The notes beneath the pieces were generated by a model. The model ran no database searches, was not told where the DNA came from, and saw only the letters and a list, made by a program, of their open reading frames with translations. From Phenylobacterium immobile (ATCC 35973) (GTDB taxonomy: Bacteria; Pseudomonadota; Alphaproteobacteria; Caulobacterales; Caulobacteraceae): a DNA stretch of 64,000 nt. Shown here piece by piece: positions 4,836-26,127 of this stretch. The stretch is from positions 186,001 through 250,000 of the forward strand of contig NZ_CVJQ01000002.1 in NCBI RefSeq assembly GCF_001375595.1. The letters are read 5' to 3'. The position numbers were made by a program, and so were the translations under genes. The stretch's first letter is position 1. Each line of letters opens with the position of its first letter.

Positions 4836-6707
4836 CTACTTCCGAAAGTACGCGTAGATCCGTTCCGCCAGCGGCTGGCTCACGCCCGCCACCTTCATCA
4901 GATCCTCCGCCGAGGCCCGCGAGACCCCCGCCGCCGAGCCGAACGCATGCAGTAGGGCCCGTTTGCGCCCCGGCCCCACGCCGTCGATCTCGTCCAGCGG
5001 GTTCTTCTTCATGTCCATCGCCCGCTTGGTGCGGTGCGTGCCGATGGCGAAGCGGTGAGCCTCGTCGCGCAGGCGTTGCAGATAGTAGAGCACCGGCGAC
5101 TTGGGCTCGAGCATGAAGGGCGGCTTGCCCGGGAGGAAGAACCGCTCCAGGCCGGCGTCGCGATCCGGGCCCTTGGCCACGCCGACCACGGCGATGTCGT
5201 CGACGCCCAGGTCCGCCATGATCTCCAGCGCCGCGCTCAGCTGCCCCGCCCCGCCGTCCACCAGCACGAGGTCGGGGCGGACAGCGCCCGCGCCCTCCTC
5301 CTCTTCCTTCACCAGGCGGGCGAAGCGGCGGCGCAGCACCTCGCGCATCATGCCGAAGTCGTCGCCCGGGGTAAGCTCGGTGCTCTTGATGTTGAACTTG
5401 CGATACTGGCTTTTCTGGAAGCCTTCCGGCCCGGCGACGATCATCCCGCCGACGGCGTTCGTCCCCATGATATGGCTATTGTCGTAGACTTCGATGCGCT
5501 CCGGCTGACCCTCCAGGCCGAAGGCTTCGCAGACGCCGGCGAGCAGCTTTGATTGAGCGGAACTCTCGCTCATCCGTCGACCGAGAGCCTCGCGGGCGTT
5601 GGTGAAGGCGTGCTCCACCAGCTGTTTCTTCTCGCCGCGTTGGGGCCTGGCGATCTCGACTTTGCGGCCGCTCTTCTGAGTGAAGGCCTCGGCCAGCAAG
5701 GCCTCCTCGGCGGGGACGACATTGACCAGGATGACCTTGGGGATCGGCTTGTCGTCGTAGAACTGGCCCAGGAAGGCGCCCATGATGTCCGCGTCTTCAT
5801 CGGCCTTGTCGACCCGGGGGAAGTAGGCGCGGTTGCCCCAGTTCTGGCCCGCGCGGAAGAAAAACACCTGCACGCAGGCCTGGCCGCCCTCGGCGTGCAG
5901 AGCGAAGACGTCGGCTTCCTCCACTGTCTCAGGATTGATCTGCTGTTCTTGAGCCACGCTGGCCAAAGCCCGGATCCGATCGCGAAGACGTGCGGCGCGC
6001 TCGAACTCCATCTCGTCAGAGGCCGCCTGCATCTCCGCCGACATCCGGCCCATCACCGCCCGGCTCTTGCCGCGCAGGAAGTCCTCCGCCTGCTCGACCA
6101 GGGCCGCGTAGTCGTCAAGAGCGACAAGCCCTGTGCACGGCGCCGCGCAGCGCTTGATCTGGTGCAGCATGCATGGGCGGCTACGACTATCATAAACACT
6201 GTCAGAACAAGACCTTAGAAGAAAAGCCTTCTGCAAAGTGTTCAGCGTCCGGTTCACCGCGTTGGCGCTCGCGAACGGCCCGAAGTAATCGCCCTTGATG
6301 GTGTGGGCGCCACGGTGCTTGCGCAGCTGTGCGGCCGGGTGCTCGCGCCGGATGACGATCTCGGGGAAAGACTTATCGTCCCTCAAAAGAACATTAAAAC
6401 GCGGCTTCAACTGCTTGATAAGATTAATCTCAAGTAGCAACGCATCGGTCTCAGTCCGCGTCGTTACGAACTCCATGGACCGCGTCAGGTCGACCATGTG
6501 AGCGATACGCTGGGTGTGGAAACGACCTTGGGCGTACTGGATCACGCGCTTCTTGAGCGACCGCGCCTTGCCGACGTAGAGCACCTCGCCGCCCTCGCCC
6601 ATCATGCGATAGACGCCCGGCCGATCCGGCAGGCGTGTCACCTCGTCCTTGATCAGGGCTGCGCCGATCAGGGGCGTCCCTCCGGCGGCGACGGGCGTAT
6701 CAAGCAT
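4836..6707 (-). CDS. uvrC: excinuclease ABC subunit C
   Basis: A 623-residue UvrC, which makes both incisions around bulky DNA lesions in nucleotide excision repair with UvrA and UvrB. Visible parts in order: the GIY-YIG nuclease (PGVYRM ... LYVGKA near residues 30-48), a Cys-rich segment (RSCSDSVYD ... CAAPC), a UvrB-interacting UVR motif near 205-240, the RNase H-like endonuclease domain ([16 protein letters not shown]) and tandem helix-hairpin-helix motifs at the C-terminus ([14 protein letters not shown]). Length is typical. Two short stretches, 6182-6243 and 6375-6475, use A/T-ending codons quite unlike the rest of the gene (see findings). Confidence 0.97.
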
Positions 6708-6749
6708 GGCGCCAATATAGGCCGCTTCGCGCGTCCTGGGAGAGGCCGA

Positions 6750-13511: not shown

Positions 13512-13517
13512 TCTAGG
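13512..13517. repeat. left target-site duplication of the IS element (TCTAGG)
   Basis: TCTAGG at 13512-13517 abuts the left inverted repeat, and the identical TCTAGG at 14538-14543 abuts the right one. Exact 6-bp duplication at both ends defines the insertion boundaries. TSD length is within the range seen for IS481-family elements. Confidence 0.9.
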
Positions 13518-14451
13518 TGTCGTTTCCAAGAAGGTTGTTCACCCTTGTCCAGGGTGAGAGTCCGCCGATGCCGGCGTGAGGTCGGCTGAGGTTGTAGGCG
13601 TCGATCCAGGGTCCGATGGCTTGGGCGCGTTCAGCCGATGAGCTGTAGGGCTTGGCGTAGGCCCACTCCCTGAGGCTGGTCTGGATGAAGCGCTCGGCCT
13701 TGCCGTTGGTCCTGGGCGTGTACGGCCGGGTGCGGACGTGGCGGGCGCCGGCGGCCTGCAGGGCGTTGGCGAAGAGCTTGGAACGGTAGGCCGAGCCGTT
13801 GTCGGTCATCACCCGCTCGACGCGGACGCCGCAACGGCCGAGCCAGGCCAGGGCGCGTTCGAGGAAGCCGGTGGTGTCGAGTTGGCCTTCCGAAGACAGG
13901 ATCTCGGTGTAGGCCAGGCGCGAAGCGTCATCGACGCAGACGTGCAGGAAGTCCCAGCCAGCGCGGCGCGAGCGGCCGAGCTGGCGGTCGCCGGTGACGC
14001 GGTGGCCGGCGACGTCGAAGCGGCCGAGCTTCTTGATATCCAGATGGATCATCGCGCCCGGTCGGCTGTGCTCGTAGCGGATCACCGGCGGCTTCGGATC
14101 GAGCGCGGCCAGCTTGCCCAGCCCCTGCCGGCGCAGGATAGCCCCCACCGTCGAGCGGGCCATGCCCAGCGTCCGGGCGATCGCCGGACCGGTCATCCGC
14201 TGACGCCGCAGTTGCTCGATCTCAGCCACACGAGCCGCAGCCACCTTGCGCGGACATCGTCGCGGCGCCGAGCTGCGGTCGTGATGCCTTCGCTCGCCGC
14301 CGCGACGATGCCGGGCGATCCATTTGCGCGCTGTCCGCAGCGACACCCCTGCCGCCTCCGCCGCCGCCTTCGCCGTCCAGCCTTGCGACACGCGCCGCGC
14401 CAGCAGCGCTCGACCCCCAGGCGTCAGACGGGCATTCTGGTGGACGTTCAT
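13513..14451 (-). CDS. IS481-family transposase
   Basis: A 312-residue DDE transposase. The N-terminal third has two helix-turn-helix segments (TAKAAAEAAGVSLRTARKWI and MTGPAIARTLGMARSTV). The integrase core carries the catalytic triad: Asp in MIHLDIKKLGRF, Asp in VMTDNGSAYRS and Glu in RTNGKAERFI. Translation runs through the left inverted repeat, and the final Thr and the TAG stop use bases of the target duplication (13513-13517), so the host site supplies the stop codon. The start ATG lies 86 bp inside the right end. The gene looks functional. Confidence 0.95.
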   Translation of the reverse strand: MNVHQNARLTPGGRALLARRVSQGWTAKAAAEAAGVSLRTARKWIARHRRGGERRHHDRSSAPRRCPRKVAAARVAEIEQLRRQRMTGPAIARTLGMARSTVGAILRRQGLGKLAALDPKPPVIRYEHSRPGAMIHLDIKKLGRFDVAGHRVTGDRQLGRSRRAGWDFLHVCVDDASRLAYTEILSSEGQLDTTGFLERALAWLGRCGVRVERVMTDNGSAYRSKLFANALQAAGARHVRTRPYTPRTNGKAERFIQTSLREWAYAKPYSSSAERAQAIGPWIDAYNLSRPHAGIGGLSPWTRVNNLLGNDT

Positions 14452-15036: not shown

Positions 15037-16023
15037 ATGGGTTACGTGAGAAGCAATTCGGCCGACCGGGCGTCTGTGACGCAGCTTGGCTATGTGGGTT
15101 TCGGTGTCTCGGACATGGCGGCCTGGCGCGATTTCGCCGGCAACCTGCTGGGTCTCCAGGAAGTGGGCGAAGCTGAGGACGGCTCGGTTTTCCTCCGTCA
15201 CGACGGCTATCATCGCCGTATCGAGCTGCGCCCCACGGGCGAGGACGATCTGGTCTTCTCGGGCTGGGAAGTGAAGGACCTGGAGTCGCTCGCCCAGATG
15301 GCCGACCAGATCCGCGCCTATGGCATTGAAGTCACGCAGGGCACGGCCGAAGAGTGCGCCCGTCGCATGGTCGTGGGCCTCATCAAGTTCACGGATCCGG
15401 ACGGCCTCCCCGTCGAGATCTATTGCGGCGCCTTCGTCGATCACAAGCCCTTCGTCTCGCCCCGCGGCGTGCGCGGTTTCAACGCCGACAGCATGGGCCT
15501 GGGCCACATCCTGGTGCAGGTCGCCAACGTTGAAGAGTACGTCCGCTTCTACACTGAAGTGCTGGGCGCGAAGCTCTCGGACTACATCCAGTTCAACCCG
15601 CAGGTCCGGGCCACGTTCATGCACGTGAACCCGCGCCACCACTCCCTGGCCGTCGTGCCCCGGCGTCCGGCGGTTGAGGGCGAGCCTGCGCCCAAGCGCC
15701 TGAACCACTTCATGCTTGAAGTGAAGGATCTGGACGATGTCGGCCTGGGCCTCGGTCTGTTCCAACAGCGCGGCATCCCGACGGGCGCCATCGGTCGTCA
15801 CACCAACGACAAGATGACCTCGTTCTACGGCAACACGCCTTCGGGCTTCAACGTCGAGTACGGCTTCGGCGGCCTGCAAATCCTCGACGAGGACAAGTGG
15901 GAAGTGGTTCAACACCGGGCCGCTTCGATCTGGGGTCACGGCATGGTCCAAGCCCGTCCGGCGCCCGCTGCGCCGCAGGCGATGGCCTCGGCCAACGCCG
16001 CGCCGGCCAAGCAACCGGCGTAA
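15037..16023 (+). CDS. type I extradiol (VOC) ring-cleavage dioxygenase, BphC-like
   Basis: A 328-residue two-domain vicinal-oxygen-chelate protein; the ATG at 15037 follows GAGGAAGG. In the C-terminal domain the iron ligands are present: His157 (GLGHILVQV), His224 (LNHFMLEV) and Glu274 (FNVEYGFGG), together with second-sphere residues matching His195, His241 and Tyr250 of BphC (NPRHHSLAV, GRHTNDKMTSFYG). It should therefore be an active Fe(II) enzyme cleaving a catecholic ring next to a hydroxyl. The Ala/Pro-rich tail after residue 305 is unusual. It is transcribed divergently from hxlR and followed by a strong terminator. Confidence 0.9.
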   Translation: MGYVRSNSADRASVTQLGYVGFGVSDMAAWRDFAGNLLGLQEVGEAEDGSVFLRHDGYHRRIELRPTGEDDLVFSGWEVKDLESLAQMADQIRAYGIEVTQGTAEECARRMVVGLIKFTDPDGLPVEIYCGAFVDHKPFVSPRGVRGFNADSMGLGHILVQVANVEEYVRFYTEVLGAKLSDYIQFNPQVRATFMHVNPRHHSLAVVPRRPAVEGEPAPKRLNHFMLEVKDLDDVGLGLGLFQQRGIPTGAIGRHTNDKMTSFYGNTPSGFNVEYGFGGLQILDEDKWEVVQHRAASIWGHGMVQARPAPAAPQAMASANAAPAKQPA

Positions 16024-16263: not shown

Positions 16264-17352
16264 ATGAGTGAAAAATTGAAACTTGGCGTCGTGGGTTTAG
16301 GAGTGGGGGTCACGGGACACATTCCGGCTGCACGTCTCGAGGGATTCGAGGTTGTCGCTCTGGCGGCGCGCACAGCTGACAAACTCACCGAAGCGGCGGA
16401 CCGCTTAGGAGTGGAGGGTCGCTATACCGATTTCGAAGCGCTCCTGGCCCACCCGGGCCTGGACGCCGTCGCCATCACGACCCCGCCGGCGCCACATCAC
16501 GACATGGTTCTGAAAGCCCTCGACGCCGGCTTGCATGTGATGCTGGAGAAGCCCTTCGCCCTCAACACGGCTGAAGCGACGGAAATGCGGGCGCGCGCAG
16601 CGGCGAGTGGCCGCACGGCGATGATCGCTCACGCCTTTCGCCATGCGCCCGCTCGTGCCTACGTCAAATCCCTGATCGACGAAGGCTATATCGGGACCTT
16701 GCAGGGCATCTCCATGACCTTCTTCGTCGGTCCAAAAGAGCCTCCGCTTCCGGCGCCGGCACGGAGCCACTGGCGCCTTGGCATGAAGACCGGCGGCGGC
16801 TTCTCGACGGGCCAGATGTCAACGTTCTTCGACAGCATCATCGATTGGTTCGGCCCGGTGAAGGCGATCAACGGCCGCACGATCGCACCGAAGCCGGGTG
16901 CGCTCCAGGCTGATGGCAGCGCTCTGGACGGCGACAGCGGCGTCACAGCCACTTTCGAGCTGGCGAACGGCGCCTGGGGCGCCATTTCGGCCTCGAGCGC
17001 ATCACCCTTCGGCCCCGGCGGCAGGATCAACATCCTGGGTAGTGAAGGCGCTCTGGAAATCGTTCAGCCCATCCTCGTGGCCAGCGATGCCGAGACGGTG
17101 TCCGGGGGCAGGTTCGCCGATGGCCCTCAGATCAGGCCGCTCGAGATCCCGCCCGCCTTCATCCTGCCGACTCTTGAAAACGATCCGAAGCCGGCGATCT
17201 ACCGCGCCTATAGGAAGCTCTATCTCGATTTCTCTGCGGGCATAGGCGCTGGAACCTCTCCGGCCCCGAACTTCGATGACGCCTATCAGCTTCAGCGTAT
17301 TTCGGATGCTCTGCACGAATCCAACGCCACTGGCGCCTGGGTGAACGTCTAG
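16264..17352 (+). CDS. Gfo/Idh/MocA-family NAD(P)-dependent oxidoreductase
   Basis: A 362-residue protein starting at an ATG after GAGGAGGAAACG. The Rossmann opening GVVGLGVGVTGHIPAARL and the EKPFALN motif (nicotinamide-proximal Lys-Pro) are those of the Gfo/Idh/MocA family, followed by the alpha/beta C-terminal domain. Members oxidise sugars or inositols, and a subset acts on dihydrodiols. Next to an extradiol dioxygenase and oxygenase subunits, a dihydrodiol or related diol is a reasonable but unproven substrate. It sits alone between two terminators, with a possible shared HxlR site upstream. Confidence 0.88.
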   Translation: MSEKLKLGVVGLGVGVTGHIPAARLEGFEVVALAARTADKLTEAADRLGVEGRYTDFEALLAHPGLDAVAITTPPAPHHDMVLKALDAGLHVMLEKPFALNTAEATEMRARAAASGRTAMIAHAFRHAPARAYVKSLIDEGYIGTLQGISMTFFVGPKEPPLPAPARSHWRLGMKTGGGFSTGQMSTFFDSIIDWFGPVKAINGRTIAPKPGALQADGSALDGDSGVTATFELANGAWGAISASSASPFGPGGRINILGSEGALEIVQPILVASDAETVSGGRFADGPQIRPLEIPPAFILPTLENDPKPAIYRAYRKLYLDFSAGIGAGTSPAPNFDDAYQLQRISDALHESNATGAWVNV

Positions 17353-17419: not shown

Positions 17420-18385
17420 TCAGACCTTGCTGATCTCGTTCAAGGTCGCCAGCACGGCCGGATCAAGGTCCAAGTCAGCCGCGCCAATATTGGCTTCCAG
17501 CTGGGCCATGTCCTCAGGACCGATCACCGCGCTCGCCACAGCCGGCTGAGCGATCAACCAGGCCAGCGCCAAGTGTGGACTGGAAATGCCGCACTCGGCC
17601 GACAAGGCTTCGACCTTTTTGGCGAGCTCGATCTGTCGTTCGTTAAAACCCGCGCCGCCCCAGCGCTGGGCGCCGGCGAAGGCGCGGCCGTCGGTGGCGG
17701 CGCCGGCGAACAAGCCGCCCGCCAGCGGGCTGAAGACCGTCAGCGACAGGCCGGCGGCCAGGACCGCGGGGATGACCTCGGCTTCGGGCGTGCGGAGCGC
17801 CAAGTTGTAGGGAATCTGGTTCGCCACGGGCGGCCGGGCGCCCATCTTGTCGGCTTTCCACAGCGCGTCCGTCAGACGCCACGCCGGATAGGTCGACAGC
17901 GCATAGTAACGGATTTTGCCCTGGCGGACGAGATCGTCAAAGGCCGCCACCGTCTCGTCGATCGGCGTCGTCACGTCCGGATGGTGAGCGTAGTAGATGT
18001 CGATATGGTCGGTGTCGAAGCGCTTCAAGCTGCGCTCGATCTGTTGGAAAATGTGACGGCGCGAGAGACCACGGTCGTTCACGCCCTCACCTACCGGTTC
18101 CATCACCTTCGAGGAGAGGATGATGTCATTGCGGCGACCCTTGATGGCCTTGCCGACGATCTCTTCAGAAGAGGCGCGATCCTTCGCGGCCGGCGCGCCA
18201 GGACGATCAAAATGGGGTTGGTTGCCGTAGCTGTTGGCCACGTCGATGTGGTTGATGCCGAACTCAAGGGCGCGGTCGATGAGCTTGAGCCCATCCTTCT
18301 CAAGGGGCGCGACGCCGAAGGTCGCAGTGCCCAGAGCGAGTGCGGAGACGCGAACGCCCGTACGGCCGAGTTGATTGTATTTCAT
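17420..18385 (-). CDS. aldo/keto reductase
   Basis: A 321-residue (beta/alpha)8 oxidoreductase; the ATG at 18385 follows AGGAGG. The catalytic tetrad positions are visible: Asp and Tyr in HIDVANSYG, Lys in ILSSKVME and His in IYYAHHPDV, so the enzyme looks active with NADPH. It is the last gene of a three-gene leftward operon (rhodanese-like, oxygenase alpha-like, AKR) with a 20-bp gap to the gene before. AKRs can reduce or rehydrogenate ring-derived carbonyls. The actual substrate is unknown. Confidence 0.9.
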   Translation of the reverse strand: MKYNQLGRTGVRVSALALGTATFGVAPLEKDGLKLIDRALEFGINHIDVANSYGNQPHFDRPGAPAAKDRASSEEIVGKAIKGRRNDIILSSKVMEPVGEGVNDRGLSRRHIFQQIERSLKRFDTDHIDIYYAHHPDVTTPIDETVAAFDDLVRQGKIRYYALSTYPAWRLTDALWKADKMGARPPVANQIPYNLALRTPEAEVIPAVLAAGLSLTVFSPLAGGLFAGAATDGRAFAGAQRWGGAGFNERQIELAKKVEALSAECGISSPHLALAWLIAQPAVASAVIGPEDMAQLEANIGAADLDLDPAVLATLNEISKV

Positions 18386-18405: not shown

Positions 18406-19587
18406 CTAATTTTGGTTTTGTTGACTGGAAAGCGGCGCGCCCTCTTCTGCGGAGGGCTTGCGAATCATCAGTTGAAGCTTGTCCTCGTGGACGGCCGGAT
18501 CGACAGGCGCGTCGATCTCCGCCTGCCACCAGGCGTAGAAGCTGCGCTGCCCCATCTCGCTGACGAGATCAGAGATCTGGCCGGGGTAGTTGGATCGGCG
18601 CTCATGGCCGAGGCCCATCTGCAGGTTGAGCCCTGCGCGGCGGCGGCGGCGTCCGCGGCTGATCTTCGTGATTTGCGACCAGACCGCCTCGTGGTCCTGG
18701 GTCTCCATGCCGGTAGGCCCAAAATGCAGACTGCAACGGCGACGCTTGGCGTCCCTCACCGACTGCGGATCATTGGCGGCGACAAGACAGTAGGTATGAA
18801 CCTCCGTCTCATTCGCGCTGACCGGATGCCAGACGTGCAGGACGCCGATGTCTCCATCGAACGACAGGTTCGGGAAGATCGTTGCGCTGAGCGCCTTCAC
18901 CTCCGTCTCGGCATATTCGGCGCTCAACATCACCACGCCGCCGCCAGCCGCGGCCTGGAAGCCCTCGGTCAAGTTGGGTTCGCCCTTGTCTAGGGCGTCC
19001 GTCGTGGCCTTGGTGACGGTCAGGCGGCGGTACTGGTCGCCGCAGTAGGTCTCGACACCAAGCTTCCAGTTGCAGGTGAGCCTGGTCTTCAACGGCAGTT
19101 CGCCGTGAAAGACGACGCCGCCGGCGAAACTGTCGGCGATCAGGTCGAAGTACCAGGCGAACTCGCCCAGCTGCTCGCGGAAGGTCCGTGAGCCGCGGCC
19201 CACAAAGACGAAGCCGCGGTCAACCACCGCAGCGCCCATGCTTTTCAGTGGCACGCTGCCCTTGGCGCCGTCGCGGGTGTAGGCCCACCCGTGGCAGCCG
19301 CAGATCAGCTCTTCTGCGGAGCCTCGCGGCTCGGCGACAATCGACTCTTCCGAGCGCGCGCAGCGGTTCTCGTAGGCGCCGAGCACCCCGGCCGAATCCC
19401 GCCACAACACGACGGCCTTTCGGCCGACGCGCGTGACGTAGAATGCGCCGGGCTGTTCAACCCAACTCGCCGGACCGCCGAACAGCCAAGAGCGTGCGAA
19501 CGGTCCGTCGAGCTCCCGGCCGAGCAGGCCGGGATCGGAGTAGACTTCAGGACTGAGTTCGGCGGCTACGGTGTCGTAGTACGCCAT
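18406..19587 (-). CDS. ring-hydroxylating oxygenase alpha-subunit homologue lacking iron-site histidines
   Basis: A 393-residue protein with the two-domain layout of Rieske non-heme iron oxygenase alpha subunits: N-terminal Rieske domain (about 40-150) and C-terminal catalytic domain. Family landmarks are clear (LCNWKLGVE-like TCNWKLGVET, YCGDQY, CGCHGWAY), but key ligands are changed. The Rieske C-x-H is Cys76-Ala-Arg78, with Cys96-x2-His99 retained at the canonical x17 spacing. The catalytic D-x2-H-x4-H is Asp184-Gln-Tyr-Arg187-x4-Thr192. One cluster His and both mononuclear-iron His are therefore missing. It is otherwise full length with no frameshift, and lies 5 bp after the rhodanese-like gene. 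It probably cannot act as a normal oxygenase; a regulatory, scaffolding or new catalytic role is possible. Confidence 0.88.
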   Translation of the reverse strand: MAYYDTVAAELSPEVYSDPGLLGRELDGPFARSWLFGGPASWVEQPGAFYVTRVGRKAVVLWRDSAGVLGAYENRCARSEESIVAEPRGSAEELICGCHGWAYTRDGAKGSVPLKSMGAAVVDRGFVFVGRGSRTFREQLGEFAWYFDLIADSFAGGVVFHGELPLKTRLTCNWKLGVETYCGDQYRRLTVTKATTDALDKGEPNLTEGFQAAAGGGVVMLSAEYAETEVKALSATIFPNLSFDGDIGVLHVWHPVSANETEVHTYCLVAANDPQSVRDAKRRRCSLHFGPTGMETQDHEAVWSQITKISRGRRRRRAGLNLQMGLGHERRSNYPGQISDLVSEMGQRSFYAWWQAEIDAPVDPAVHEDKLQLMIRKPSAEEGAPLSSQQNQN

Positions 19588-19592
19588 CGATC

Positions 19593-19970
19593 TCAGCTAG
19601 CGGCTTTCTTCACCGGCGGCGGCTGGATGCCGTCCGAGATGGTTTCCGTGGTCTTGTCAGCTTCGATCCAGGCGTCATAGCCGCCGTCGAGGATCGCCAC
19701 GCCTTCGGTGTAGAAGCCAGAGTCCAGAGCAGCTTGAGCCGCTTCCAGGGACATGCCTTGGCCGTCGTCGTCGACGAACACCAGCTTGCGGTCCTTCGGG
19801 ACCTGGGCGTTGCGGCTGACGACTGAAGTCGCCGGCAGGTTCAGGGCGCCAGGGACGCGACCGCCGAAATAGTCGAAGGGCGGACGAACGTCGACGATCT
19901 GGGCGTCCGACGTGTTGATGAGCTTTTCGACGTCTTCAACGCTAAGACGCGCAATGTCGTTAGAAGCCAT
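19593..19970 (-). CDS. rhodanese-like domain protein without catalytic cysteine
   Basis: A 125-residue single-domain protein from the ATG at 19970, which follows GGGGAGG. The rhodanese fold is recognisable: AQIVDVRPPFDYFGGRVPGA near 24-42, then a strand and the active-site loop, then VAILDGGYDAWIEA. In active sulphurtransferases the loop is C-x2-G-x2-S; here it is Asp67-Asp68-Asp69-Gly70-Gln-Gly-Met-Ser, so the persulphide-forming Cys is replaced by Asp and persulphide chemistry is not expected. It is the first gene of the operon with the defective oxygenase alpha homologue, and a MarR-like operator lies about 100 bp upstream. Confidence 0.85.
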   Translation of the reverse strand: MASNDIARLSVEDVEKLINTSDAQIVDVRPPFDYFGGRVPGALNLPATSVVSRNAQVPKDRKLVFVDDDGQGMSLEAAQAALDSGFYTEGVAILDGGYDAWIEADKTTETISDGIQPPPVKKAAS

Positions 19971-20270: not shown

Positions 20271-20882
20271 CTAGCTGGCGAAGCCTTCCATCGGCATCCG
20301 CGGCTCGGCGCGCTCGCGGGACGGCGAGGCTGCTGGGCTGGCCGCAGGACGAGCGTCCGAATGCGCCTGGATCGCGCCCGCGCGCAGCGCGTCAATGAAC
20401 AGGCTCGAGCCTGATGGCAGCTTTTCCTGGTTCATCAAGGGACCGAGAATGGTCCCGAACGCCTGGGCGTTTTCACCGATCAAATCGGCGAAATGCTTGT
20501 AGTAGGCCCGCAGAAACGGCTGGCTGGCGAGGTCGTAAGTCCGCACCCCCTCGGGCGTCAGGACCGCATAGGTGGCCCGACGGTCGGCCTCGGAGACCTC
20601 GCGCACCAGGAATCCCTTGGCTTGCAGAGCGTCCACCTGCCGGCTGATCCGGCTCTGGCTAAGAAGCGTGCCCGTCGCCAGGTCGATCAGCCGCATCCGG
20701 CCGTCGTTGTTCTTGAGGATGTGCAGGATCTCGAATTCCGGCAGCGACACGGGCGCCTCGGCCTTCAGCGCCTTATCCACCTGATCGGTGACCACCTTGA
20801 ACGCCTTGAGGAAGAGCCCCCAGACCATCCATTGCTCCCGCGGCGGGAATTCCAGAGCGGGCGCATCCGGCGACTTGGACAT
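20271..20882 (-). CDS. MarR-family transcriptional regulator
   Basis: A 203-residue regulator. The winged helix is seen as LPEFEILHILKNNDGRMRLIDLA, then LLSQSRISRQVDALQAKGFLVRE and the wing SEADRRATYAVLTPEG. The Pro/Ala-rich tail after 170 is longer than usual. MarR proteins dimerise on palindromes and release DNA on binding phenolic ligands. A palindrome (TTGCCATGGCAA) lies 80 bp upstream, implying autoregulation, and a close copy precedes the next operon downstream. The neighbourhood of ring-cleavage and oxygenase genes suggests an aromatic effector. Confidence 0.92.
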   Translation of the reverse strand: MSKSPDAPALEFPPREQWMVWGLFLKAFKVVTDQVDKALKAEAPVSLPEFEILHILKNNDGRMRLIDLATGTLLSQSRISRQVDALQAKGFLVREVSEADRRATYAVLTPEGVRTYDLASQPFLRAYYKHFADLIGENAQAFGTILGPLMNQEKLPSGSSLFIDALRAGAIQAHSDARPAASPAASPSRERAEPRMPMEGFAS

Positions 20883-21087: not shown

Positions 21088-21633
21088 TTAGAAGAAGTTG
21101 CTCAGGTTGCGGGAGAGCAGAACGGTCTGCTCCAGATAGATGTTGCGGGTCTTGATCTTCAGTTCGCCGTCGACACGGACCAGCTCGTCAACGCGATGGC
21201 CGATCCAGTTGTCCTCTTCCGAGTTCAGACGCGTGCGATAGAAGTGGAAGTTCGAGGTGACCTTCAGCTTCTCGCCGTCATTCTCAAGAATACGGACGTT
21301 GTTGACCAGGTGGCGCTGGCGCGAGGGCGGATCTTCAGCCCAGGCGTAGCCGGTGTCGAGCTTCTTGATGCGGGCGACCAGCATGGCGTGGTCGTCGTCG
21401 AAGAAGGCGATTTCACCTGGACGCGTGAATTCGCGGTCCAGCTCGTTGCTGGTCTTCGTGCGACGAACCGGCATGAAATAGTGGCAGTCCTCGGTGAACA
21501 GCTTCAGCCATTCCGCGTAGTCGCGGTTGTCGAGGAGGCCAGCTTCCACGTAATAATATTGCTCGATTTCGTGCTGCAGCAGCAGGGCGTCGAGGTCCAG
21601 CTTCACGGCCGGCTTTTCAATCACGTCAACCAT
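21088..21633 (-). CDS. aromatic-ring-hydroxylating dioxygenase beta subunit
   Basis: A 181-residue cone-fold (SnoaL/NTF2-like) protein. The pattern EIEQYYYVEAGLLDNRDYAEWLKLFTEDCHYFMPV is the classic opening of BphE/NdoC-type small subunits, and LKIKTRNIYLEQTVLLSRNLSNFF is their usual end. Beta subunits are structural and pair with a catalytic alpha subunit to form alpha3beta3. No canonical alpha gene is in the window, and the only candidate partner is the His-deficient homologue at 18406-19587. It has its own Shine-Dalgarno (AAGGAGAA), a separate promoter region and a terminator. Confidence 0.92.
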   Translation of the reverse strand: MVDVIEKPAVKLDLDALLLQHEIEQYYYVEAGLLDNRDYAEWLKLFTEDCHYFMPVRRTKTSNELDREFTRPGEIAFFDDDHAMLVARIKKLDTGYAWAEDPPSRQRHLVNNVRILENDGEKLKVTSNFHFYRTRLNSEEDNWIGHRVDELVRVDGELKIKTRNIYLEQTVLLSRNLSNFF

Positions 21634-23010: not shown

Positions 23011-24540
23011 ATGCCGGCAGAGGCCAGAATCCGTCCCCCCGTGGGGCTGCTGACCAAGGTGCTGTACAGCTCCGGCGCCATGGCGAACCAGATAAAGCAG
23101 CAGGGCTTATCGATGCTCTTGCTGCTTTTTTACAATCAGGTGGTGGGTCTGGATCCACGTCTGATCTCCACCGCCATCATGATCGCCCTGATCTTCGACT
23201 CCATCGTTGATCCCCTGGTGGGCCAGATATCAGACAATTTCCGGTCGAGGCTTGGCCGGCGCCATCCCTTCATGTTCACCGCAGCCGCGCCGGTCGCGGT
23301 CGCCTTCTTCCTCATCTGGAATCCGCCGCACGGTTGGTCCGAAGGGGCGATCTTCGCCTACATGCTCACCTGTCTGCTGACGATCCGGCTGTTCGACACC
23401 TTCTTCGAATTGCCTTCGACCGCGCTCGCGCCAGAACTGGTCAGCGACTACGACCAGCGGACCAGGCTGCTGGCGATGCGCCAGGCGTTCGGCATCCTCG
23501 GCACGCTCGCCCTGCAGGTGAGCGTCTACCAGATCTTCATGCGACAGCATGCCGACGGCAGCGGCGGCGTCACGGTTCGCGAGGGCTACCCCGCCTTCGC
23601 CCTGGCCGCTGGCCTTTTCATCTTCGTGGTCATCGTCTTGTCCAGCGCCGGGACATTCCGGCAGATCCCGTTCCTCACCCAACCGCCCAAGCGTCCTGAG
23701 AAGGTCAACCTCGCCGCCATGGCCAGGGAAATCGGCGCCACCGTGCGGAACCGGTCCTTCGCGGTTGTCTGCATCGCCGGCATGGTGCTGGCGATCGGCA
23801 GCGGCATCACCACCAGCCTCAACGTCTACATGGGCCTCTTCTATTGGGGCTGGAACCAGAACCAGCTGACCATCCTGGTGGTGTTGCAAGTGATCTCCGG
23901 CATCGGCGGGGCTTTTATCGCCCCTGCGCTGGCGAAGCGCTTCGGCAAGCGGATCGGCGGCATCACCACCGGGACCATCGGGATCACGCTGTCGACCACG
24001 CCGGTCATTCTCGACCAGCTCGGCTTCATGCCCGCGCGGGGCGAAGACATCCTGTTCTACACCATGATGGTTTTCGTGCTGTCGACGCAGGCCTTCATGC
24101 TGGCGACCAGCGTGGCCATCCAGGCCATGATCGCCGACGTGGTCGAAGACGCTGCGGTGAAGACCGGTCGGCGTAGCGAGGGCCTGCTGTTCTCCGCCGA
24201 CAATCTGTTCAAGAAGGCGGTGTCCGGCGTCGGCGTCCTTGCCGCCGGCCAGATGCTGCACTTCGCCAACTTCCCGGAGAACGCCAAGGTCGTCGGCGTG
24301 TCGGCCGACGTTCTCAGCCACCTCGGCTGGACCTACGTCTTCGCCCTATGGTGCTTCAACGGCGGTTGCCTGGTGACGCTGTCGTTCTACACGATCGATC
24401 GCAAGAAACATGAGGCCAACGTCGCCAACCTGGAAGCGGCGGGCCTGGCTGCGCGCGAGGAGCCCGCCCTGGGCGCAGCGCGGGATAATCCGGCGCCGCT
24501 CTTCGGAACGGAGCCGGGCGTGCAGCCCAAACCAAGCTGA
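23011..24540 (+). CDS. MFS transporter, GPH-type sugar:cation symporter family (copy 1)
   Basis: A 509-residue inner-membrane transporter with about 12 hydrophobic segments, starting after GGGAGG. The N-terminal region (KQQGLSMLLLLFYNQVVGLD, DSIVDPLVGQISDNFRSRLG, RRHPFMF) matches the glycoside-pentoside-hexuronide:cation symporter pattern, including the conserved D-x3-DP-x2-G segment in helix 2. Such carriers are also found in sphingomonad and Caulobacter catabolic clusters for non-sugar substrates. It is followed 60 bp later by a close paralogue, so the pair arose by tandem duplication. Confidence 0.9.
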   Translation: MPAEARIRPPVGLLTKVLYSSGAMANQIKQQGLSMLLLLFYNQVVGLDPRLISTAIMIALIFDSIVDPLVGQISDNFRSRLGRRHPFMFTAAAPVAVAFFLIWNPPHGWSEGAIFAYMLTCLLTIRLFDTFFELPSTALAPELVSDYDQRTRLLAMRQAFGILGTLALQVSVYQIFMRQHADGSGGVTVREGYPAFALAAGLFIFVVIVLSSAGTFRQIPFLTQPPKRPEKVNLAAMAREIGATVRNRSFAVVCIAGMVLAIGSGITTSLNVYMGLFYWGWNQNQLTILVVLQVISGIGGAFIAPALAKRFGKRIGGITTGTIGITLSTTPVILDQLGFMPARGEDILFYTMMVFVLSTQAFMLATSVAIQAMIADVVEDAAVKTGRRSEGLLFSADNLFKKAVSGVGVLAAGQMLHFANFPENAKVVGVSADVLSHLGWTYVFALWCFNGGCLVTLSFYTIDRKKHEANVANLEAAGLAAREEPALGAARDNPAPLFGTEPGVQPKPS

Positions 24541-24600
24541 GTTCAACGCGGCTGACGACGGGCGAAAGACCCACGTCGGCCCACCATTGGGAGGAAGTCC

Positions 24601-26127
24601 GTGGTCAACGAAACTAGGGTGCGCCCGCCCGTCGGCTTGCTCACCAAGATCCTTTACGGCTCCGGCGCCTCCGCCAACCAGATTAAGCAGCAGGGGCTCT
24701 CGATGCTCCTGCTGCTGTTCTACAATCAGGTGGTGGGTCTCGATCCGCGCCTGGTCTCCAGCGCGATCATGATCGCCCTCGTGTTCGATTCCGTGGTCGA
24801 CCCGCTGGTCGGCCAGATCTCGGATAATTTCCGCTCTCGGCTCGGTCGGCGGCACCCCTTCATGTATACGGCCGCGGCGCCGGTCTCGATCGCCTTCTTC
24901 CTGATCTGGAACCCGCCGCAGGGTTGGAGCGAGGGCGCGCTCTTCGCCTACATGCTCACTTGTCTGCTGACGATCCGGCTGTTCGACACCTTCTTCGAAC
25001 TGCCTTCGACGTCGCTCGCACCGGAATTGGTCAGCGATTACGACGGACGGACCAAGCTACTGGCGCTACGCCAGATGTTCGGCATCCTGGGCACGCTCAC
25101 CCTGCAGGTGAGCGTCTATCAGATCTTCATGCGACAGCACCCCGACGGCACCGGCGGGGTGACCGACCGCGCCGGTTACCCGGGCTTCGCGCTCGCCGCC
25201 GGCCTCTTCATCTTCACGGTCATCCTGATCTCGACCATGGGGACGCACCGGCAAATCCCCTACCTGTCCAAGCCGCCTGTTCGCCTGAAGAAGCCCAGCG
25301 TCCGCGACACTCTGAAAGAGATCATCGCCACTGTCCGCAACCCCTCGTTCGGCGTCGTGGCGACAGCCGGGATGGTGTTGGCCATTGGCACGGGCATCAC
25401 CTCCAGCCTCAATCTCTACATTGGGCTTTTCTACTGGGGCTGGACCCAGAACCAGCTGACGATCCTGGCGATCCTGCTGGTGACCTCCGGCATCTTCGGC
25501 GCCTACATGGCGCCAAAGGTTTCAAGGCGCCTCGGCAAGCGGGTCGGCGGGCTGACCACAGGCGCGATCAGCATCGTCCTGATGATCGCCCCGATCATTC
25601 TCGACCAGCTGGGCTTCATGCCGGCCCGCGGCACGGACGCCCTGTTTGGCATCCTGATGGGATTTGCGCTCACCACCCAGGCCTTCACCCAGGCCACCGC
25701 CATCGCCATCCAGGCGATGATCGCCGACGTCGTCGAGGACGCCGCCGTCCGCACCGGACGACGCAGCGAAGGCCTGCTCTTCTCGGCGGACAATCTGTTC
25801 AAAAAGGCCGTGTCCGGCGTCGGCGTCATGGCCGCCGGCCAGATGCTGCACTTCGCCAACTTCCCGGAAAACGCCAAGGTCGTCGGCGTCGACCCAGTGG
25901 TGCTGACCCACCTGGCCTGGACCTATGTCGGCGCACTGATCTGCTTCAACGGCGGCTGCCTTGTGACCCTGTCCTTCTATCGCATCGACCGGGCCAAGCA
26001 TGAGGCCAATGTCCGCACGCTCGAGGCTTCCGGCCTCGCCGCCCGAGAAGATCCGTCCCTGACGGCGGAGCGCGAGGCGCCCGCGCCTCTGATGGGAATA
26101 AACCCCGCGGTCCGGCCAGAAGGCTGA
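24601..26127 (+). CDS. MFS transporter, GPH-type sugar:cation symporter family (copy 2)
   Basis: A 508-residue paralogue of the preceding gene, beginning at a GTG after GGGAGGAA. The two proteins align end to end with long identical stretches in helices 1-2, in the FELPST region and in the segment before helix 11 (SEGLLFSADNLFKKAVSGVG). They differ mostly in the middle loop (about 225-245) and at the C-terminus. Synonymous differences are frequent, so the duplication is old and not an assembly artefact. The two probably have related but distinct substrates, or form a paired system. Confidence 0.9.
   Translation: MVNETRVRPPVGLLTKILYGSGASANQIKQQGLSMLLLLFYNQVVGLDPRLVSSAIMIALVFDSVVDPLVGQISDNFRSRLGRRHPFMYTAAAPVSIAFFLIWNPPQGWSEGALFAYMLTCLLTIRLFDTFFELPSTSLAPELVSDYDGRTKLLALRQMFGILGTLTLQVSVYQIFMRQHPDGTGGVTDRAGYPGFALAAGLFIFTVILISTMGTHRQIPYLSKPPVRLKKPSVRDTLKEIIATVRNPSFGVVATAGMVLAIGTGITSSLNLYIGLFYWGWTQNQLTILAILLVTSGIFGAYMAPKVSRRLGKRVGGLTTGAISIVLMIAPIILDQLGFMPARGTDALFGILMGFALTTQAFTQATAIAIQAMIADVVEDAAVRTGRRSEGLLFSADNLFKKAVSGVGVMAAGQMLHFANFPENAKVVGVDPVVLTHLAWTYVGALICFNGGCLVTLSFYRIDRAKHEANVRTLEASGLAAREDPSLTAEREAPAPLMGINPAVRPEG

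Follow-up and report, generated by a model that had tools for sequence, protein, structure and literature searches.

The gene at positions 18406–19587 (minus strand) of the window, the 64,000-nucleotide stretch of DNA analyzed here, encodes a homolog of Rieske oxygenase α subunits that is devoid of working metal sites. We favor, with a probability of about 0.4, the interpretation that its product is an expressed, metal-free pseudo-subunit, which would fold as an α subunit and act as a non-catalytic partner of the β subunit PpoD. The window comprises bases 186001–250000 of contig 2 (269 kb) in the six-contig, 3.33-Mb genome of Phenylobacterium immobile, a herbicide-eating soil bacterium. On the contig the open reading frame spans 204406–205587 (minus strand) and encodes 393 residues with no internal stop; its third-position GC content (0.81) is similar to that of the neighboring genes.

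The calculated masses are 43,274 Da for this protein and 21,538 Da for PpoD. Table 2 of Hunold et al. (2021; PMC7907043) lists ppoc1 on scaffold 2 at 204405–205587 (minus strand), with a mass of 43.27 kDa and accession WP_091743116.1, and ppod at 207087–207633 (minus strand) with a mass of 21.53 kDa. Because the coordinates differ by no more than one base and the mass agrees, we identify the gene as that of PpoC1 from P. immobile strain E. The literature thus already covers the gene, the lack of a Rieske consensus and the probable inactivity of the protein. New relative to the main text of PMC7907043 are (i) the loss of the mononuclear iron triad, (ii) the missing gate loop and (iii) the recognition of ppoC1 as an α gene neighboring ppoD; a simulation against neutral decay of ppoC1 is also new here.

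Metal ligands and pocket elements of PpoC1

PpoC1 matches the two expected Pfam domains in the order seen in active α subunits, Rieske (PF00355, 36.6 bits against a cut-off of 20.3) followed by Ring_hydroxyl_A (PF00848, 51.1 bits against 24.9). An AlphaFold model computed from a five-sequence alignment has a mean pLDDT of 41.5 and no credibly modeled catalytic domain, so that support for the fold comes from the profile matches. For residue-level comparison, PpoC1 was aligned (MAFFT) with 45 canonical α subunits, 19 from its own genome, 14 from related genomes and 12 from a plasmid collection. Near-duplicates, three open reading frames of locus L062 and the distant PpoC3 and PpoC8 were left out, and two cut copies were replaced by full-length versions. 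We refer to ligands by the numbers that we take to be those of naphthalene dioxygenase (NDO), having checked the letters at those numbers in the sequence. All seven ligand columns (Cys, His, Cys and His of the Rieske cluster; His, His and Asp of the mononuclear iron site) are intact in 45 of 45 canonical rows, with zero losses among the 19 intact PpoC-clade α subunits of the same genome.

The Rieske motif of PpoC1 reads C-A-R ... C-G-C-H in place of the active-α consensus C-X-H ... C-X2-H. Cys76 is retained, and the first cluster histidine (NDO His83) is replaced by Arg78 (CGC, 19354–19356; this and all codons below are on the minus strand). The second loop, Cys96-Gly-Cys98-His99 (19291–19302), keeps both of its ligands, and Cys98 occupies the NDO Tyr103 column, which holds tyrosine in 45 of 45 canonical rows. 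The 2-His-1-carboxylate triad (NDO His208, His213 and Asp362) is absent altogether. Arg187 (CGC, 19027–19029) replaces His208; Thr192 (ACC, 19012–19014) has the spacing of His213, whereas the corresponding MAFFT column holds Lys193, neither of them a histidine; and His299 (CAC, 18691–18693) replaces the carboxylate ligand Asp362, with Ala301 at the position of NDO Glu/Asp364. PpoC1 contains no histidine at all in residues 1–98 or 162–250, and the ligand losses are thus explained neither by misalignment nor by a nearby substitute.

These results bear on an earlier note on this DNA, which had described Cys76, Arg78, Cys96, His99, Asp184, the GDQY motif, Arg187 and Thr192. All of these are confirmed from the sequence, as are CGC at codons 78 and 187 and ACC at codon 192. 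The suggestion that two of the sites each arose by a single CAC-to-CGC transition is compatible with the present-day codons. The note's count of one Rieske and both catalytic histidines missing is borne out and yet understated, since the third iron ligand has gone as well. Asp184 (19036–19038), which had been taken for the retained carboxylate ligand, instead falls in the NDO Asp205 column (Asp in 45 of 45 rows), which we take to be the bridging aspartate between neighboring subunits; the true ligand is Asp362, now His299.

A further replacement affects the surface expected to meet the electron donor. Glu92 (19312–19314) stands where 43 of the 45 canonical rows have Lys or Arg (the other two have Glu and Leu) and, by counting from the Cys ligand, corresponds to K117 of cumene dioxygenase, a residue described as important for ferredoxin binding (PMC9361823). 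The loss of this charge also weighs against the idea that PpoC1 carries an unusual iron–sulfur cluster on Cys76, Cys96, Cys98 and His99, that is, on three cysteines and one histidine. The count of ligands in the two cluster loops would be right, and a cysteine has appeared at an otherwise invariant tyrosine. In bc1-type Rieske proteins, however, the cysteine at the place matching Cys98 forms a disulfide and is not a ligand, and we consider such a cluster very improbable.

PpoC1 is also not the full-length homolog that it was first taken for: NDO residues 119–134 and 219–261 have no counterpart. The Gly112–Gly146 column span of the Rieske domain is 19 residues long in PpoC1 and 32–42 in the 45 canonical rows, and the Asp205–Phe301 span is 55 residues compared with 89–110. 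The NDO loop E221–A238, described as an active-site gatekeeper (PMC7907043), lies inside the second missing stretch, and the gate loop has therefore gone from PpoC1. Given that PpoC1 lacks one Rieske ligand, all three iron ligands, the gate loop and the positive charge for ferredoxin docking, it should not transfer electrons or activate oxygen in the usual manner, as judged from what is established for the family. The sequence thus supports the earlier view that PpoC1 lacks normal oxygenase activity, and PMC7907043 likewise remarks that the protein is without the Rieske consensus and 'probably not catalytically active anymore'.

We considered whether the changes could be a sequencing or assembly error, given that a single short-read assembly (PMC4432328) is the source. 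The replacements are scattered and accompanied by two deletions with the frame still intact, the 3.3-Mb genome was covered by 9.3 million raw 250-base reads (PMC4432328), and the mass listed in PMC7907043 agrees, though it derives from the same assembly. An error on this scale is extremely improbable.

Divergence and maintenance of the reading frame

The divergence of PpoC1 extends beyond its metal sites. Identity to the 45 canonical rows is 24–33% over aligned residues, and of the 52 columns that 95% or more of these rows share, PpoC1 keeps 32 and has lost 20, several of which are not metal ligands. Canonical rows, each tested against rows less than 45% identical to it, have lost a median of 5% and a maximum of 13% of conserved columns; NDO itself has lost 7 of 53. 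In a maximum-likelihood tree of the 46 rows, the PpoC1 end branch (6.36) is by far the longest, and long branches make its placement unsafe. A sister relationship to the 19 PpoC α subunits of its own genome is rejected (p-AU 0.012), whereas a sister relationship to a wider, 28-member clade (the 19 PpoC proteins, YL-1 and eight α subunits from related genomes) is not (p-AU 0.518). Since the nearest relatives found for PpoD lie beside YL-1/PpoC-type α subunits, PpoC1 has probably not arisen lately by copying of the α subunits that usually accompany PpoD, and descent as a recent copy of a PpoC appears unlikely on these sequence comparisons.

Searches for an ortholog returned the gene's own genome and little else. 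That genome was the only match among 149 relatives (E 1e-30), 385 genomes of the class (1e-27) and 398 genomes of the phylum (1e-27); among 398 genomes of the order (1e-24) three matched, namely its own and two with ordinary-type α subunits, one already in the alignment and the other its near-copy. An exact-octapeptide pattern scan of an 84,980-species collection gave one weak partial match and no ortholog, every match in a plasmid collection (517 records) was less than 60% identical to PpoC1, and none of 7 records from a phage collection covered 80% of it. The genome samples overlap and each search has its cut-off, so a distant ortholog might be missed. An oxygenase clade sharing the Arg/Arg/Thr set, as the earlier note had envisaged, was not found in these overlapping samples at the cut-offs used, and no family of pseudo-oxygenases is thereby established.

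An important question is whether a gene this altered is simply decaying. We simulated neutral change from three canonical starting genes under each of three settings until 20 of the 52 conserved columns had changed, in a scheme that covers substitutions only and holds conserved sites unchanged up to the point of loss. At 20 losses, 7 of 1800 runs over the nine settings were free of stops, and the mean number of stops ranged from 4.4 to 6.0 by setting. Were some 7 of these 20 losses put down to ordinary divergence, as the NDO value of 7/53 would suggest, about 13–14 losses would be the fairer comparison; for one starting gene, stop-free runs numbered 1 of 200 at 14 losses, 17 of 200 at 10 and 65 of 200 at 6. 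An earlier, looser simulation pointed in the same direction, with 0 of 100 runs stop-free in each of eight settings. The figure of 7/1800 argues that selection held the frame open for at least some of the period since the loss of catalysis; this would not hold if the majority of the conserved columns had already changed by then.

Expression has been reported as well. In PMC7907043, PpoC1 is named among the α subunits induced on L-phenylalanine, and not on pyrazon or phenazone, with peptides identified at >95% probability. The same paper is not fully consistent on detection, stating that 17 of 19 α subunits gave peptides while naming three as never detected. Simple neutral decay of ppoC1 is unlikely, and the earlier note's judgment to this effect is upheld by the open frame, the reported expression and the 7/1800 stop-free runs, with a margin that becomes smaller if fewer losses are counted. 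Hydrophobic-core retention was tried as a further sign of selection and does not discriminate, being 82% in PpoC1 and 77–81% in neutral runs.

The closest competitor to the PpoD-partner reading is that PpoC1 is an expressed relic, a former α subunit that has lost its job and is still translated with its neighbors to no present function. The very long branch, the loss of 20 of 52 conserved positions that include several non-ligands and the lack of an ortholog among the sampled genomes all fit this account, as does the presence of other α genes in clearly disrupted form (a Tn3-family element seems to have split one, and another is Rieske-less and lies beside a transposase gene). Against it are the absence of any stop, when neutral runs with equal losses nearly always carry them, and the reported expression. 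We regard a relic as possible, although we place it second.

The ppoD locus and a possible partner role

The genes ppoD, a MarR-type regulator, a rhodanese-like protein, ppoC1 and an aldo/keto reductase lie in a row on the minus strand, separated by gaps of 205, 300, 5 and 20 bases. A PF00866 search identifies ppoD (21088–21633), the PpoD of PMC7907043, as the sole β-subunit gene found in the genome. The MarR-type gene is at 20271–20882 and the aldo/keto reductase gene, which has AGGAGG upstream of its start, at 17420–18385. On the plus strand are genes for a Gfo/Idh/MocA-family oxidoreductase (16264–17352) and a BphC-type extradiol dioxygenase (15037–16023). A scan for promoters and terminators gave 1 and 2 sites, respectively, against 0.9 and 4.5 expected. 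An IS481-type transposase gene lies near the locus (13513–14451), with best plasmid matches that are 72% identical and come from Aminobacter. At 23011–26127 there are two tandem MFS_2 sugar-type transporter genes whose proteins are 77% identical; P. immobile is reported not to grow on most ordinary carbon sources (PMC7907043).

The rhodanese-like gene (19593–19970), which ends 5 bases before ppoC1, encodes 125 residues without a single cysteine. Where a catalytic cysteine would be expected, its loop reads VDDDG, as does one domain of 1yt8. Two apparently non-catalytic proteins are therefore encoded side by side, and the earlier description of an intact frame in normal surroundings holds for the frame (no stop in 393 residues) and not for this neighbor. 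A search of 119 genomes for relatives of the rhodanese-like protein gave one weak match besides itself.

It is also possible, in principle, that the emptied scaffold of PpoC1 binds an aromatic compound or a protein and tunes the pathway together with the adjoining MarR and rhodanese-like proteins. The tight packing of ppoC1 with the cysteine-less rhodanese-like gene and the MarR gene upstream are compatible with such a ligand-binding or regulatory function, and L-phenylalanine is the one of three carbon sources with which induction is named in PMC7907043. Deletion of the pocket gate loop is difficult to reconcile with it, and we think this function decidedly unlikely.

The start of ppoC1 is 1.5 kb downstream of ppoD on the same strand. 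The text of PMC7907043 states that no α gene is close to the β gene, although its own coordinates place ppoc1 1.5 kb from ppod. Elsewhere, loci of this type contain an intact α gene. Relatives of PpoD (E 1e-30 or better) occur in 15 of 248 related genomes, its own included, and in 13 of the other 14 genomes the surroundings of the gene (about 4 to 20 kb) include an α relative in every case (13 of 13) and, in 11 of them, a BphC relative as well; the two loci without the latter are L055, on a 4-kb contig, and L063. On the Rhodococcus plasmid pYLC1, a β subunit 62% identical to PpoD is encoded beside a canonical α subunit, a VOC-family protein and aldo/keto reductases. ppoC1 thus occupies a type of locus that in other genomes holds an intact α gene.

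The earlier note had offered a regulator, a dominant-negative or scaffold subunit or a new chemistry as roles for the protein, all of them hypothetical. One PF00866 β subunit must be set against 19 intact PpoC-type α subunits in this genome, and this is the setting in which a partner role would make sense. PpoC1 would keep the α-subunit fold, take up no electrons and activate no oxygen in the normal way, and it could either hold the β subunit or fill places in mixed trimers. A native-gel size of ~200 kDa was taken in PMC7907043 to suggest that all expressed α subunits assemble with PpoD, the main text giving no gel position for PpoC1; a complex of three PpoC1 (43.3 kDa) and three PpoD (21.5 kDa) subunits has a calculated mass of 194 kDa and would fit. 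On the strength of these two values we take the PpoD partner as first choice. We also count in its favor the ligand losses set against 0 of 45 in canonical rows, the open frame, the single β gene, the 5- and 20-base gaps and the reported induction. Counted against it are the rejected tree with PpoD's usual partners, the longest branch, the lack of an ortholog in our searches, the low-pLDDT model, a core retention near that of neutral runs and the slightly inconsistent detection list of PMC7907043.

A more specific role can be imagined, in which PpoC1 serves specifically to manage the one β subunit. By binding PpoD and either maintaining its solubility or restricting its supply, it would determine which of the 19 α subunits assembles when many are induced, as on L-phenylalanine. 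We consider this version unlikely.

Related systems and other α genes

Among NCBIfam models, the best for PpoC1 is HcaE, the α subunit of 3-phenylpropionate/cinnamic acid dioxygenase (NF042946), which matches in two stretches with an E value of 5.7e-51. The score of 173.9 bits lies far below the equivalog cut-off of 830, and the metal ligands of PpoC1 are gone. PpoC1 resembles the α subunits of α3β3 oxygenases of the NDO/biphenyl type (e.g. PDB 2gbw and 8k0a) in having both Pfam domains in order and in Cys76, Cys96, His99 and Asp184, and differs from them by four replaced metal ligands and two deletions. A different parallel is provided by the chlorophyllide a oxygenase of Micromonas, whose two metal sites were reportedly found by Kunugi et al. 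in 2013 to be divided between two chains. As described in PMC9615114, this two-chain enzyme shares with PpoC1 a Rieske oxygenase polypeptide that lacks one or other site; its chains complement each other, whereas in PpoC1 ligands are missing from both sites. No paper on Rieske pseudo-subunits was found by title or start of abstract among open-licence papers.

PpoC1 bears on the question of how one β subunit serves 19 α subunits and why most of these appeared dead in Escherichia coli. In PMC7907043, 17 α subunits were cloned with PpoD in that host and product was obtained from PpoC11 only. A pseudo-α subunit encoded adjoining the β gene, and left out of the E. coli constructs, is a concrete candidate for a missing factor. 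Should PpoC1 bind PpoD, it would represent a kind of non-catalytic oxygenase subunit for which we found no paper in the open-licence literature; should it do nothing, it would offer a conveniently situated example of a dead enzyme that is still expressed.

The genome contains further α genes worth recording. Four full-length PpoC-clade α subunits with all ligands present are encoded on contig 1 near 1.086, 1.290, 1.152 and 1.189 Mb (L006, L007, L009 and L014, respectively) and are absent from Table 2 of PMC7907043, bringing the intact PpoC-clade α subunits to 19 rather than 15. In L078, a Rieske-domain piece (726–1136) and an α C-terminal piece (5695–6711) flank a transposase gene of the Tn3 family, which looks like a single α gene broken in two, and a 7.1-kb stretch of L078 matches the 19-kb plasmid contig L079 at 96.5% identity. 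At L077:2248–3153, an α gene with a catalytic domain and no Rieske domain match adjoins a DDE_Tnp_IS240-type transposase gene.
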